From positions 1 through 43,373 of IMG/VR virus record IMGVR_UViG_3300027749_004522: 43,373 nt of DNA; one strand, given 5' to 3'. Under the pieces are notes generated by a model, which worked only from the letters and a program-made list of their open reading frames with translations, was not told the origin of the DNA and made no database searches. Positions 34,181-42,947 of the stretch are shown here, one piece after another. The stretch comes from a virus. A program made the position numbers and the translations under genes. Every line of letters begins with the position of its first letter. The stretch's first letter is position 1.

Positions 34181-35002
34181 ATGGAAAATAAATTTTATAT
34201 CTACATCTATTTTGATAATAGAAAACCAGGTGAATTCATATATGGAGATTACCAATTTGATTATGAACCAATATACATTGGAAAAGGAACAAAAGATAGA
34301 GTTAAAAAACACCTTTATACATACAAAAATAGTAAAACACATTTTCACAATAAATTAAACTTAATTCTTAAAGAAGGTTATAAACCATTATATAAAATAC
34401 TTATTGACAACCTATTAGAAAAGGATGCACATAATGAGGAAATAAGACTAATAAAAATTATCGGCAGAGAGATAAATGGTGGTCCTTTAAATAATCTTAC
34501 TGATGGTGGTGAAGGTCAAACTGGATTTAGACACAGAGAGGAATCTAAAATAAAAACATCAAACTCTTTAAAAAACAATACTATATTTCAGGAATATATG
34601 AAGACTGAAGAGTATAGAAAAAAAATTAGTAATGGTCTAATGGGACATGAGGGATATGGTAAAGGAATACCTAGAACAGAAGAAGTTAAAAATAAAATAA
34701 GAGAAACTCTAAAAGGTCGACCAGGTAGAAAGCATAACATTGAATCCATTGAAAAAATGAGTAACAATAATAAAGGTAAAGGTAATCCTAATTCAAAAGT
34801 TTATTTTATTGAAATAGATGATGAATTATTAGTATTTGAAAGTAGATCAGAATTAAAAAAATACCTTGAAAATTTTAATGTAGATAAAAATCTAAAAGGT
34901 CCAAATAGAGTTAGTTTAGATGGAATTTTAAATAGAGGTATTTCAAAAAACTTTAAACTTAGAAAAATCGAAAAATTAAAAGATTATCAAAAACAAAACT
35001 AA
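34181..35002 (+). CDS. GIY-YIG homing endonuclease with NUMOD3-type repeats
   Basis: A 273-residue protein. The N-terminal GIY-YIG nuclease has FYIYIYF, then PIYIGKGTKDRVKKH with catalytic Arg, and NEEIRLI with the metal-binding Glu. The middle carries NUMOD3-like DNA-binding helices (GHEGYGKGIPRTEEVKNKIRETLKGRPG, with a second KIKTSNSLK unit), and a C-terminal domain follows. This is the Seg/Mob type of T4-like free-standing homing endonuclease, which cuts related genomes to spread itself. It sits between an orphan gene and the AsnRS-like gene. The box before its start (34167-34177, TTTATATATAG) is only 3 bases away. Confidence 0.88.
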   Translation: MENKFYIYIYFDNRKPGEFIYGDYQFDYEPIYIGKGTKDRVKKHLYTYKNSKTHFHNKLNLILKEGYKPLYKILIDNLLEKDAHNEEIRLIKIIGREINGGPLNNLTDGGEGQTGFRHREESKIKTSNSLKNNTIFQEYMKTEEYRKKISNGLMGHEGYGKGIPRTEEVKNKIRETLKGRPGRKHNIESIEKMSNNNKGKGNPNSKVYFIEIDDELLVFESRSELKKYLENFNVDKNLKGPNRVSLDGILNRGISKNFKLRKIEKLKDYQKQN

Positions 35003-35067
35003 CATTTTTGTATATATACATAGAATAATTTTAGATGGCATTATGCTATCTAAAAAAAAAATTATAT

Positions 35068-35928
35068 ATGTCAAGAACAAAAAGAACAAACATTCAAAAC
35101 ATTACTAACTACAACACGGCAGTAAATCTACTAAGAGAATTTTTTACAAAAAAAGGATTTGTAGAAATCGCAACACAACCAAATTTAACGATTCTATCAG
35201 CATGTGAAAATCCATTCTCAGTATCAACATACAACTATAATGGTGAGGTATGGCCCTTACCACAGACAGGTCAAATGATTTTAGAGGAAGTTTTACTATC
35301 AAATCCAGAATTACCAGGATGCTTCTGTATCTCTACATCTTATAGAGCAGAAAAAGATCCAATCCCTGGAAGACACGAACTTATTTTCCCAATGTTTGAA
35401 TTTGAATCTAAAGGAACTTTAAAAGATCTTAAAGTATTAGAAGATGAATTGTTAAACTTTTTAGGATTTGGTTCACCAGTTGAAATCGACTACAATGAAA
35501 TCTGTGAAGAGTACGGTGGAGTTGAAATCTTAGAAGATGAACACGAAGCTAGAATGTGGAAAGAATTAGGACATTGTGTTTCTTTACAAAATTTCCCTGA
35601 AAGAACTTCCCCATTTTGGAATATGAAACATAAAGCAAATGGAATCTTTAATAAAGTAGATGTTATTTTATTCGGACAAGAAACAATTGGTTCTGCAGAA
35701 AGAAGTTGTGATAAAGAAGAAATGAGACATACATTTGAAACTATTTCAGAAGGTGGATATGCGGCTAAATTATTTGAATTGTTTGGTGAAGAAAGAGTTA
35801 CTAAAGAATTAGATGATTTCTTAAACTTTGATTTCTTCCCAAGATATGGTGCAGGAATTGGTTTAACAAGATTATCAAGAGCGATGGAGTTACTTCAAAA
35901 ACAAGAACAGCTTGAATTACAAGACTAA
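35068..35928 (+). CDS. Minimal class II AsnRS-like catalytic domain
   Basis: A 286-residue class II synthetase core without an N-terminal anticodon-binding OB domain. Motif 2 is CISTSYRAEKDPIPGRHE followed by FPMFEFE, and motif 3 is YGAGIGLTRLSRAME. The order matches AsnRS/AspRS. The start at MSRTKRTN is preferred, 11 codons inside the longest frame. Stand-alone AsnRS-like cores in archaea (asparagine-synthetase-related proteins) make asparagine, so it may act on free aspartate rather than charge tRNA. It could also aminoacylate a tRNA or protein. Followed by a strong terminator. Confidence 0.82.
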   Translation: MSRTKRTNIQNITNYNTAVNLLREFFTKKGFVEIATQPNLTILSACENPFSVSTYNYNGEVWPLPQTGQMILEEVLLSNPELPGCFCISTSYRAEKDPIPGRHELIFPMFEFESKGTLKDLKVLEDELLNFLGFGSPVEIDYNEICEEYGGVEILEDEHEARMWKELGHCVSLQNFPERTSPFWNMKHKANGIFNKVDVILFGQETIGSAERSCDKEEMRHTFETISEGGYAAKLFELFGEERVTKELDDFLNFDFFPRYGAGIGLTRLSRAMELLQKQEQLELQD

Positions 35929-36519: not shown

Positions 36520-36714
36520 TCATTTTTTATTATCTTTTAGTATTAAATCAATCTTTTGATCTCTAACATATGCAGTACTTTTTCTATAAAAATCTTCTAT
36601 GACATTTTGAGCATCATAACCGTATGATTGCATATCCATAATCTGTTCTCTTGTTAAAGGTAATGTTATTCCTTCACAGATAACATAATGATTTTTATCA
36701 AACTCAATCTTCAT
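36520..36714 (-). CDS. Small orphan protein, 64 residues
   Basis: A helical protein with ITLPLTREQIMDMQSYGYD, similar in style to small phage regulators, and a Lys-rich end. Overlaps the end of the upstream GIY-YIG gene by 11 bases, so it is probably co-translated. Ends in TGA. Confidence 0.5.
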   Translation of the reverse strand: MKIEFDKNHYVICEGITLPLTREQIMDMQSYGYDAQNVIEDFYRKSTAYVRDQKIDLILKDNKK

Positions 36715-37537
36715 TCTCCATTTTTATAAATTCCCAACCTTTATATTCATCAATATCACCATATCTTAATTTTTTTAAATAATAATATGATATATTATAG
36801 TCTTCAGTCATATTTTTTAAACCTCCTTTATGTATAATTACATTTTCATTATATTTAAAGTAATAAGTTATTCTTTCATCATGTCTCTTTTTAGAAATTT
36901 CTCTATGTTTTTCTCTAAAGGTCTCAGATTTAACCATATTTTTAAAATTTTCTGAATTTTTTAGTGATTTTGATATATTATCAAGATGTTTTTTTGTTTT
37001 TCTATACCCTTTAAGTGCATTTGATATTTTATTACGATGTTCAATAGACTTTGGAATATTCTTTAATGAATTAAAAATAGCCTCATTGTGTTCAGGTGTA
37101 TTTTTTTTACCATATCTGGGATTATTTTCACCAGTATTTATAATTCTATAATACTCCCGTATCTCCGAACTTCTTTTATTTTCAATTGCGTTTTTAAACT
37201 TTTCCGACTTTTTTAATCCATTTTTAACCATCTCTGATACAGATGTCTTTAAATAATCTCTTGTTAAATTACAAAGATTATCTAGTCCTATCGTATCAAT
37301 CAACTCAACCTCTATTTTATATGAATCAATCTCATCATCTGTCTCATAAATTTTAAAATAATCAATCTCGTCACCTATAGATAATACAGATAATATTTTT
37401 TCATATAACGCACTATTATTATTTGATTTAACACCAACTTTAGCTCTTTTTTCATGAATATACATTCTTCTACCAGAACCTTTACCAACATAGAACACTA
37501 TACCATTATGACTTAATGTATAAACATAATACTTCAT
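36704..37537 (-). CDS. GIY-YIG homing endonuclease with NUMOD3-type repeats
   Basis: A 277-residue protein. The GIY-YIG core is MKYYVYTLSHNGIVFYVGKGSGRRMYIHEKR, with catalytic Arg, and EVELIDTIG provides the metal-binding Glu. Several NUMOD3-like segments follow (NPRYGKKNTPEHNEAI, HRNKISNALKG). A C-terminal helix-turn-helix-like end with NISYYYLKKLRYGDIDEYKGW suggests a NUMOD1/IENR-type DNA-binding module. It is a free-standing homing endonuclease of a subtype different from the one at 34181, and lies between the Fpg/Nei gene and a small orphan. Ends in TGA. Confidence 0.88.
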   Translation of the reverse strand: MKYYVYTLSHNGIVFYVGKGSGRRMYIHEKRAKVGVKSNNNSALYEKILSVLSIGDEIDYFKIYETDDEIDSYKIEVELIDTIGLDNLCNLTRDYLKTSVSEMVKNGLKKSEKFKNAIENKRSSEIREYYRIINTGENNPRYGKKNTPEHNEAIFNSLKNIPKSIEHRNKISNALKGYRKTKKHLDNISKSLKNSENFKNMVKSETFREKHREISKKRHDERITYYFKYNENVIIHKGGLKNMTEDYNISYYYLKKLRYGDIDEYKGWEFIKMENED

Positions 37538-38627: not shown

Positions 38628-39728
38628 ATGAAAAGATATATAACAACAGAATGTGTTGCTTGGGGTCATCCAGACAAAGTAGCAGACCAAATTTCAGATG
38701 CTATCTTAGATGCTTATCTTACTATTGATCCAACCTCAAAAGTTGCAGTAGAAACAATGGTTAAAGATAATACAGTAGTCTTAGGTGGTGAAGTAAAATC
38801 AAAAGCAATAATTGATTATGATAGTGTAATAAGAAATCTAGTAAAAGAAATCGGTTATACTGATGCAGAACATGGATTCTACTATAAAAACTTAACAATA
38901 ATTAACTTAATAGGCAAACAAAGTACTGAAATAAATTCAGCAGTTGAGATTAGTGATGAAGAAGTAACATCAGGTGACCAAGGATTTATGGTTGGATATG
39001 CTAGTGACGAAACACCAAATTATATGCCACTTGGTTCTTATATCTCTAGAAAAATTGTTGATGCAGTTGTTTCAATTGGTGGTAAATATTTTGATTTAGG
39101 ACCAGATGCAAAATCACAAGTTACTATTGAAGAAGATGGTGATAATAGAAGAGTTGAAAGTATTTTAATTTCTACTATGCACTCAACTAAAATATCTTTA
39201 GAAGAACTTAGAAATATACTAAACTTAGACTTTATTAAAGGAGTAGTAGGTTTAGATATAATAGACGAAAATACAAAATTGTATATAAACCCAGCAGGTT
39301 CTTGGAATGTTGGTGGTCCAGTATCAGACTGTGGAGTAACCGGAAGAAAAATCGTTGTTGACCAATATGGACCTTACTGTCCTGTTGGAGGTGGTGCTTT
39401 CTCTGGAAAAGATTCTTCAAAAACAGATAGAAGTGGTGCTTATCTTGCAAGATATATTGCTAAAAATATAGTTGCCAATAAATTGGCTAAAAAATGTAAG
39501 GTAGAATTATCTTATATGATCGGTGTTGCAGAACCAAGTTCAATCAATGTTGATACTTATGGAACTGGTGATGATATAAAACTAATAGAACTAGTAAAAG
39601 AAAAATTTCCAGTAACTCCAAGTGGTATAGTAAAACTATTTGATATGAATAGACCTATTTATAGACAAACTGCAATATGTCACTTTGGTAATGAGAATAA
39701 TCCTTGGGAGCAAATAATTAAATTATAA
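38628..39728 (+). CDS. metK: S-adenosylmethionine synthetase
   Basis: A 366-residue MetK: ECVAWGHPDKVADQISDAILD (ATP and methionine site, His14), TSGDQGFMVGYASDE, then GSWNVGGPVSDCGVTGRKIVVD and GGGAFSGKDSSKTDRS (phosphate loop), ending near IYRQTAICHFG. Near full length (cellular MetK about 380-400). It makes SAM from methionine and ATP. The phage also carries a cytosine methyltransferase, so one role may be to secure SAM supply; host reprogramming through SAM is another possibility. Confidence 0.96.
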   Translation: MKRYITTECVAWGHPDKVADQISDAILDAYLTIDPTSKVAVETMVKDNTVVLGGEVKSKAIIDYDSVIRNLVKEIGYTDAEHGFYYKNLTIINLIGKQSTEINSAVEISDEEVTSGDQGFMVGYASDETPNYMPLGSYISRKIVDAVVSIGGKYFDLGPDAKSQVTIEEDGDNRRVESILISTMHSTKISLEELRNILNLDFIKGVVGLDIIDENTKLYINPAGSWNVGGPVSDCGVTGRKIVVDQYGPYCPVGGGAFSGKDSSKTDRSGAYLARYIAKNIVANKLAKKCKVELSYMIGVAEPSSINVDTYGTGDDIKLIELVKEKFPVTPSGIVKLFDMNRPIYRQTAICHFGNENNPWEQIIKL

Positions 39729-41031: not shown

Positions 41032-42288
41032 ATGAATGATAACTATAAATATGTGACTGTGATGTTTCCTTACCCTTCTGGTAGTGGGTTGCACTGTGGA
41101 CATTGGTATAACTATGCTATTATGGATAGTTACTGCAGATATTTGAGATATAAAGGGGAAACGGTATTCCAACCATTTGGTTATGATGCATTCGGTTTGC
41201 CCGCAGAAAACTATGCAAAGAAAGTAGGTAGAGACCCAAGAGAAGTTACCTACGAAAATATAGAAAATTTTAGAATACAGATGGATAACATGGATACTCA
41301 ATATGAGGAAATGTTGATTACTTCTGATCCTAACTATATTGAGTACACACAATGGTTGTTTAAACAATTGTATGATAAAGGTTTGGCTTATAAGAAAGAT
41401 GGTGAAGTTGACTTCTGTAATAGTTGTGAGACAGTATTGGCAAGAGAACAAGTAAAAGAGGGTAAATGTGAAAGATGTTCTACAGAAGTAGAAAAGAAAA
41501 CATTGAACCAATGGTATTTTAAAATTACTGATTATAAAGAAAGATTGATTACCGGTTTGGATAAGATTGACTTTCCAGAATCTACAATAAAATCACAAAG
41601 AAATTGGTTGGAAAATCAACACGACTGGTGTGTTTCAAGACAAAGAAGTTGGGGTTGTCCTATTCCTATCGAAGGAGAAACAGATACAATGGACACATTT
41701 GTAGATAGTTCTATCTATACTATTATCTATTGTATTATGAAAGGTATTAAACCAAAACCAGTTGACTTGTATGTTGGCGGATCCGAACATTCTTGTATGC
41801 ACTTGATCTATGTAAGATTTATTACAATGTTTTTGTATGATATAGGATTTATTGACTTTGAAGAACCGATTACTAAGTTGGTACATCAAGGAATGATCTT
41901 GAACCAAGGAGAGAAAATGTCTAAGTCAAAAGATAATGTAGTTAGTTTGGATGGATATGACTCTGATGAAATTAGATTTTATTTGATGTTTATTGGTCAC
42001 TATTTTGATGGTGGTTCTTGGTCGGATGAAAATATAATTGGAATTAGAAGGTTTATAAATAGAATGAAAACGTGGTTAGATAAAACAGGAGAAGAAACTA
42101 TTGATATAGAATCATTTAGGAAAACCATATTTGACTTTACAGATTCTTTCAAATTTAATAAAGTGGTTAGCTCATTTATGATTTTGTTGAATCAAAATAA
42201 AAATAAATCATTGACTACGGAATGTAAAGAAGAATTGATACAATTGATTGAGATTTATATGCCTGGAATCCGAGGTAAATTAAACTAA
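41032..42288 (+). CDS. Miniature leucyl-tRNA synthetase lacking the editing domain
   Basis: A 418-residue class I synthetase. The N-terminus VMFPYPSGSGLHCGHWYNY has the HIGH motif (HCGH, 21-24), followed by FGLPAEN, a Cys4 zinc knuckle (Cys129, Cys132, Cys146, Cys149), WCVSRQRSWGCPIPI and KMSKSKDN (295-299). Normal bacterial LeuRS is 800-950 residues. Here the CP1 editing domain, the leucine-specific domain and most of the C-terminal tRNA-binding part are missing. Of 26 leucines, 24 are TTG and two TTA, unlike neighbouring genes that mostly use TTA, CTA and CTT. It has its own host-type promoter, so early expression is likely. Confidence 0.92.
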   Translation: MNDNYKYVTVMFPYPSGSGLHCGHWYNYAIMDSYCRYLRYKGETVFQPFGYDAFGLPAENYAKKVGRDPREVTYENIENFRIQMDNMDTQYEEMLITSDPNYIEYTQWLFKQLYDKGLAYKKDGEVDFCNSCETVLAREQVKEGKCERCSTEVEKKTLNQWYFKITDYKERLITGLDKIDFPESTIKSQRNWLENQHDWCVSRQRSWGCPIPIEGETDTMDTFVDSSIYTIIYCIMKGIKPKPVDLYVGGSEHSCMHLIYVRFITMFLYDIGFIDFEEPITKLVHQGMILNQGEKMSKSKDNVVSLDGYDSDEIRFYLMFIGHYFDGGSWSDENIIGIRRFINRMKTWLDKTGEETIDIESFRKTIFDFTDSFKFNKVVSSFMILLNQNKNKSLTTECKEELIQLIEIYMPGIRGKLN

Positions 42289-42881: not shown

Positions 42882-42947
42882 GGCTTTGTATGGTTAGTCT
42901 AAGGCCTCTAAAACCAGAAGACGAGGGATCATTCCCCTCCAGAGCCA
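42882..42947 (+). tRNA. tRNA-like RNA, D-arm reduced, possible CTA anticodon
   Basis: A 66-base RNA. The acceptor stem GGCTTTG/CAGAGCC and T-stem GAGGG/CCCTC pair well, with discriminator A and no encoded CCA. The T-loop ATCATTC lacks the usual T54 and A58. The middle is short: about 17 bases stand where 24 are normal between acceptor and anticodon loop, so no D-arm can form properly. Spacing to the T-arm best fits loop CTCTAAA (42906-42912), giving anticodon CTA, but that placement leaves only two GC stem pairs. An alternative hairpin pairs GTCT at 42897-42900 with AGAC at 42919-42922. It may be a suppressor-type or decoy tRNA, or a decaying tRNA gene. Confidence 0.5.

Follow-up and report, generated by a model that had tools for sequence, protein, structure and literature searches.

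Aminoacyl-tRNA synthetase and TilS genes of huge phages appear nearly free of the residue or codon that depends on their own product

Alves and Savageau reportedly described a cognate bias of amino-acid biosynthetic enzymes, and starvation-insensitive synonymous codons are said to have been treated by Elf 2003. The bias of the biosynthetic enzymes has been explained by starvation (PMC4209129). The aminoacyl-tRNA synthetases (aaRS) of the phages analysed here resemble these enzymes in that both kinds of protein are poor in their own amino acid; however, the lowering in biosynthetic enzymes is statistical and is found in free-living cells, whereas in the phage genes it is near-complete and is also seen at the codon level. 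Moreover, the phage set is made up of tRNA-charging and tRNA-modifying enzymes (aaRS and TilS), not of biosynthetic enzymes. Among the cases of starvation-insensitive codons, we know of no cognate-synthetase gene written with 90 to 100% of one codon kind. The published examples, the SinR serine sensor (PMC3862929) and the leucine codons of E. coli (PMC3783181), likewise concern codons that have a usable tRNA under scarcity. During serine starvation, UCN stalls and AGY is readable (PMC3862929), and when E. coli is deprived of leucine, there is less variation in UUG, UUA and CUG than in the other leucine codons, CUU, CUC and CUA (PMC3783181).

Phages also answer host tRNases. The T4 tRNA ligase is directed against PrrC and some phage tRNAs evade nucleases (PMC10264068), and tRNAs are directed against retrons (PMC11555353). 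tRNA-Ser(NGA) is cut by nucleases, and phages carry tRNA-Ser(GCT) (PMC10264068). Like the device proposed below, these answers restore a tRNA function that has been destroyed by the host, but they supply a repaired or resistant tRNA, whereas here the coding sequence of the enzyme would be freed from the lost function. Huge phages, the same kind of phage as ours, are reported to encode as many as 15 aaRS and 67 tRNAs (Al-Shayeb 2020, PMC7162821), to our knowledge without mention of a depletion of cognate residues or codons. In the open-access literature, we found no account of such a purge in phage or viral aaRS.

The window, that is, the whole stretch of DNA that was analysed, is a viral record of IMG/VR with 43,373 bases and is probably a fragment. 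Its relevant features are as follows.

41032 to 42288, plus strand: predicted leucyl-tRNA synthetase (LeuRS) gene, 418 aa, class Ia, CP1 editing domain absent, leucine spelled with 24 TTG and 2 TTA
41092 to 41103, plus strand: HIGH signature of class I enzymes, present as HCGH at residues 21 to 24, read from the translation
41914 to 41928, plus strand: KMSKS signature, intact, residues 295 to 299, read from the translation
42076 to 42078, plus strand: TTA codon, the earlier of two, residue 349, from the codon count
42280 to 42282, plus strand: second of the two TTA codons, residue 417, penultimate, from the codon count
38628 to 39728, plus strand: neighbouring metK gene with ordinary leucine codons (2 of 22 TTG), the internal control

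The assignment of the open reading frame (ORF) 41032 to 42288 as a LeuRS, with a predicted function in the charging of tRNA-Leu, is based on its top NCBIfam match (TIGR00396, leuS_bact, E 2e-109), on the nearest solved structures, which are LeuRS, and on the HIGH-type and KMSKS signatures. The CP1 editing insert is absent: the protein has 418 residues versus mostly 810 to 970 in solved LeuRS, and these align to it as two separated stretches. The enzyme in PDB 3ziu, presumably the LeuRS of Mycoplasma mobile, is likewise a catalytic LeuRS without the editing insert, but with 637 residues it is longer than that of the window.

The initial annotation had counted 26 leucine codons in this gene (24 TTG, 2 TTA and no CTN, with the TTA pair near the 3' end), against about two TTG among about 20 in metK and neighbours that favour TTA with CTA and CTT, and had described the bias as confined to leucine. 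The recount agreed exactly, and the other statements were borne out as well. The 1083 leucine codons of the remaining 57 ORFs of the window are TTA (.56), CTT (.16), CTA (.16) and TTG (.09), and the LeuRS gene differs from them with a chi-square of 187 (p 2e-38). In codon statistics for each amino acid, the second-largest deviation is that of Asp (p 0.012), and none is comparable to that of leucine. The LeuRS gene is the top codon outlier in its own record and in all four near relatives (94 to 96% identical). A bias of this kind might arise from ordinary codon optimisation for expression level, or by chance, and a capsid gene is likewise codon-biased; however, genes of that sort are aberrant for more than one amino acid, whereas here it is one, the cognate. 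Furthermore, an equal depletion of non-cognate residues was looked for in the aaRS set described below and was not seen, and we regard this explanation as extremely improbable.

Viral contigs and genomes of phages were scanned for relatives, which gave 27 further LeuRS loci. TTG is the only leucine codon in the genes of LR745206.1 (18/18), L012 (19), L013 (20) and L016 (20), nearly the only one in the window's kin L004 to L008, and less strictly preferred in L011, L017, L018, L021 and L025. L022 uses CTG for 19 of its 20 leucines, though CTG accounts for 5% of the surrounding leucine codons; L023 and its near-copy L024 have no CTN (19 TTA, 10 TTG). The 735-kb phage LR756501.1 encodes a more distant LeuRS, whose 508 residues include no leucine at all. 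Free use of TTA by homologues, which the initial annotation had seen as speaking against its idea, was found in one part of the family: L014, L015, L019, L020, L026 and L028 use leucine codons roughly as their own genomes do, and others are biased to TTG. Leucine far exceeds every other amino acid in the codon deviation of the strongly biased genes, a few of which also show weaker deviations of Lys, Asn or other amino acids. TTG-only and CTG-only genes share a clade of the LeuRS tree with ordinary ones; thus, the codon state was gained or lost more than once.

Leucine sites that the biased genes have in common with ordinary relatives are TTA, CTT or CTA in the latter and TTG in the former (CTG in L022), and leucine that is absent from a biased LeuRS is mostly replaced by I, M or V. 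A recent acquisition of the gene from a TTG-spelling genome, the second origin that had been suggested for it, would explain why its codon use differs from that of the window, but leucine is the sole deviating amino acid, relatives in many phages likewise keep to one codon, be it TTG or a different one, and the common leucine sites have been recoded synonymously in place. Foreign origin was therefore dismissed as having next to no probability. The window's kin, represented by fragments of 73 to 180 kb with few tRNA genes, yielded no tRNA-Leu. The phage tRNA-Leu(CAA) that the initial annotation had considered was not found next to LeuRS in the lineage of the window, but larger relatives have one. 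At 42882 to 42947 (plus strand), the window has a tRNA-like stretch with good acceptor and T arms and a poor anticodon arm; it scored 22.9 bits, under the Rfam cut-off of 29, and was not called by ARAGORN.

Every ORF in about 1.19 Mb of sequence, taken from six records of huge phages, was scanned for every amino acid, and the four top codon outliers were LeuRS genes, in each case for leucine. The LR7452xx and LR7565xx records are, we assume, from the Al-Shayeb 2020 study. Further aaRS were located by Pfam searches of whole records and identified by NCBIfam and Pfam. The depletion is specific to the cognate residue, which is the most depleted of the 20 in 58 of 79 aaRS from 16 phage records, many of these being orthologues and hence non-independent. 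When Leu, Ser and Glu are set aside, 51 enzymes for 15 amino acids contain 81 cognate residues versus 993 expected, and permutation of the labels of these enzymes gave 919 ± 53, the lowest value being 696. GluRS is often unpurged (229 Glu observed versus 339 expected).

In LR745206.1, the cognate residue is missing altogether from IleRS (735 aa), ValRS (443 aa), AspRS (454 aa), AsnRS (392 aa), a PheRS-like protein (359 aa), ArgRS (392 aa), AlaRS (248 aa) and MetRS (457 aa), and GlnRS (532 aa) has 1 Gln. The 508-kb record G011 encodes an IleRS of 742 aa without Ile, a ValRS of 509 aa without Val, ThrRS, AspRS, ProRS, TyrRS, PheRS, AlaRS and HisRS that also lack the cognate residue, a LysRS (402 aa) with 1 Lys, and a SerRS whose 12 serines are encoded by AGT or AGC only. 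Three TrpRS have no Trp and a fourth gene of the family has 2, and the same pattern was observed in LR756502.1 and in records G007, G012, G013, G015 and G017. The window's close kin encode a His-free HisRS and have an Arg-free ArgRS-like ORF; within the window, the codon form is limited to LeuRS, and complete purges are found in the relatives.

The cognate residues that are left over lie, in several cases, in an N-terminal stretch outside the alignment or at one common site. The single Gln is retained at the same site in 7 of 7 GlnRS (E. coli GlnS Q518, counting Met1, which we take to be the anticodon-contacting Gln), and the sole Gly of two GlyRS is in class II motif 3. Signatures are altered as well, with HVGH for HIGH in two IleRS and KISKS for KMSKS in one MetRS. 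Cognate tRNA genes often adjoin the aaRS gene, at a distance of 6 to 34 bp in several cases, as expected of tRNA-aaRS modules, and there are 40 to 67 tRNA genes per phage record. Minimal aaRS are common in the phages (HisRS of about 210 aa, AlaRS of 240, TrpRS of 240, and LeuRS of 420 without the editing domain), e.g., L071:15217-15849, L072:3046-3765, L144:1495-2214 (record G011) and others. The MetRS of LR745206.1 (L030:12198-13568, minus strand) has no ATG codon at all. Upstream of its first GTG, there is no ATG, GTG or TTG before a stop codon, and the start is therefore probably ATA or another rare codon; the apparent lack of a start ATG is left unexplained by the rule proposed below, since the initiator tRNA would still be required.

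The aaRS of E. coli K-12 are not purged: their cognate ratios (n = 13) are 0.63 to 1.58, and E. coli serS uses all six serine codons. The cognate residue is at most mildly low in the aaRS of three cultured jumbo phages. GlnRS of D6 has CAG at 15 of 15 Gln codons, but it was rejected as a purge case because a host-like codon preference can explain this. Scans of viral contigs with IleRS, SerRS and LysRS, single-protein pattern searches that reach close kin only, returned the protein's own record or nothing. In a blind test, ten unannotated proteins were picked solely for a residue that they lacked or almost lacked and were then searched against Pfam. Nine of the ten were aaRS for the missing residue, two of them, both ArgRS, via weak matches.

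TilS makes the tRNA that reads AUA. If the pressure acts on decoding and not on amino-acid supply, a phage TilS gene should avoid ATA and keep the other Ile codons. Indeed, the sole TilS gene among the 16 records (TIGR02432, above the cut-off) has 14 ATT, 4 ATC and no ATA, in a phage whose genome uses ATA for 52% of its Ile codons. Of the 385 genes in this phage that have 15 or more Ile, it alone is ATA-free, and it had already been in the unbiased outlier list from the ~1.19 Mb before it was identified. In 78 phage TilS genes, which are partly inter-related, ATA was observed 38 times versus 239 expected, and 51 of the 78 genes are ATA-free versus 5.9 expected; comparable ORFs neighbouring them have ATA at an average of 1.08 of expectation. 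As a control, 30 bacterial TilS genes of one phylum, centred on the single bacterial match from a TilS scan of genome contigs, have 248 ATA versus 254 expected from a background of short flanks.

These data also bear on starvation-driven cognate bias, by which genes that are needed under scarcity of an amino acid avoid that amino acid. The literature describes this principle for biosynthetic enzymes (PMC4209129), and the leucine and serine codons chosen by the phages are among the less starvation-sensitive ones. However, the lack of an amino acid is not relieved by extra aaRS, TilS makes free use of Ile, with 18 residues, and shuns only the ATA served by its product, and the bias is absent from E. 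coli aaRS. We consider this explanation improbable.

As judged from their sequences, the aaRS and TilS genes of huge phages appear to be nearly free of the residue or codon that depends on their own product, the TTG-only LeuRS of the window being one case. The best reading, and a probable one, is that a phage gene serving to restore a decoding function is composed so that it can do without that function. Phages that bring their own tRNAs and aaRS would keep the mRNA of the restoring gene independent of the restored function, with IleRS free of Ile, ValRS free of Val, GlnRS reduced to one Gln and TilS free of ATA; a residue too common or too useful to drop (Leu, Ser) would be confined to a single still-readable codon group, TTG or CTG for Leu and AGY for Ser. 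Once the cognate tRNA of the host is cut, replaced or uncharged, ribosomes would stall at its codons, except on this mRNA, from which the enzyme could still be made and the lost function restored. The LeuRS of the window would be the codon form of this device. That an mRNA without dependent codons is readable when the function of its product is missing follows from how translation works; that it effects a rescue during infection, and an important one, is what the pattern suggests. The built-in bypass proposed in the initial annotation stands in its direction, the bias being confined to leucine, recurring in phage LeuRS and extending to aaRS and TilS, but a specific tie to tRNA-Leu(UAA) is not supported, since one relative spells leucine with CTG and the distant LeuRS has none.

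If all host tRNAs were lost together, the avoidance of one residue would be useless, and thus the device suits the loss of a single family. The cause of this loss is most likely a tRNA-targeting defence or replacement of host tRNAs in takeover, and a shortage of charging is also among the likely causes. Since AGY is predicted by both serine starvation and the cutting of tRNA-Ser, codon choice alone cannot separate cutting from low charging. The retained leucine and serine codons match the published hierarchies of E. coli and B. subtilis, which may not be the hosts of these phages. Simple supply and demand of phage tRNA genes as the rule of codon choice, weighed by hand, gave a mixed result: it accounts for the TTG and CTG of four records, but neither for the AGY-only SerRS of G011 nor for G018.

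The same sequence pattern is also predicted if there is no attack and phage translation, with its dozens of tRNAs, overloads charging, so that aaRS mRNAs free of their own codons are favoured and give negative feedback. The 40 to 67 tRNA genes of the phage records are consistent with such homeostasis, and in published work leucine UUG, UUA and CUG (PMC3783181) and serine AGY (PMC3862929) hold up under starvation. But TilS, which avoids only ATA, is not a usual charging enzyme, and there are few tRNA genes in the window's kin; homeostasis alone is possible but rather unlikely. Returning to the preferred reading, we propose as a general rule that genes restoring charging, wobble modification and perhaps tRNA repair are purged of the dependent codons or residue. 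Taken jointly with the rebuilding of translation tRNA family by tRNA family and with the prediction of function from a missing residue or codon, this rule seems, on balance, likely to be correct.

Cut tRNA is resealed by enzymes of the RNA ligase type. Two RNA ligases were strong codon outliers and five others only mild ones; RNA ligases were therefore not taken to fall under the rule in general and remain suggestive. The RNA ligase of LR756501.1 (L082:16543-17568, minus strand, TIGR02306) has 22 AAG and no AAA for Lys, no ATA for Ile, and 11 TAC and 1 TAT for Tyr, in an AT-rich phage. A T4 Rnl1-type ligase of G018 (L073:1069-2487, minus strand) has TTA at 1 of 38 leucines, along with 20 TTG and 14 CTT.

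Other outliers were seen in the window and elsewhere. A class II aaRS-like gene of the Asp/Asn/Lys group (window 35035-35925, plus strand, 297 aa) has 16 Ile codons and no ATA, but this avoidance is not conserved among relatives and was discarded. Near it are two GIY-YIG/NUMOD3 homing-endonuclease-like genes (window 34181-35002, plus strand, and 36704-37537, minus strand), the second with no Gln versus 8 expected. GluRS-like proteins of ~280 aa in the window's kin (L116:5882-6721, L114:4212-5045 and L132:3985-4821) have normal Glu and at most 1 ATA among 18 to 21 Ile codons; their LR745206.1 orthologue uses ATA freely. Two proteins gave no family match: one of 491 aa in LR745206.1 (L053:3274-4746, minus strand) uses AAG, GAG and CAG over AAA, GAA and CAA, contrary to its phage, and one of 324 aa in G011 (L070:6809-7780, plus strand) has 1 Phe versus 16.5 expected and by the rule may be tied to tRNA-Phe. 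The Phe-free protein of LR745206.1 (L053:13821-14897, minus strand) matches the PheS-related mystery ligase SrmL (NF051887), which suggests that the phage member of this family charges tRNA-Phe.

An IleRS of 742 residues without Ile and a LeuRS of 508 residues without Leu are surprising for translation and phage biologists, and natural 19-amino-acid enzymes should be useful for questions on the origin of the code and for protein design. The blind test, in which the missing residue named the enzyme in 9 of 10 cases, provides a method of annotation, and if the rule is true, a missing residue or codon would predict the function of unknown genes. The pattern suggests a role for phage synthetases, that of an enzyme whose synthesis does not require its own product. 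It also points to the loss of a single tRNA function as a strong and recurrent pressure in infection and makes this testable. If this is true, these phages would rebuild translation stepwise, each tRNA family in its turn, where the cell has lost it.
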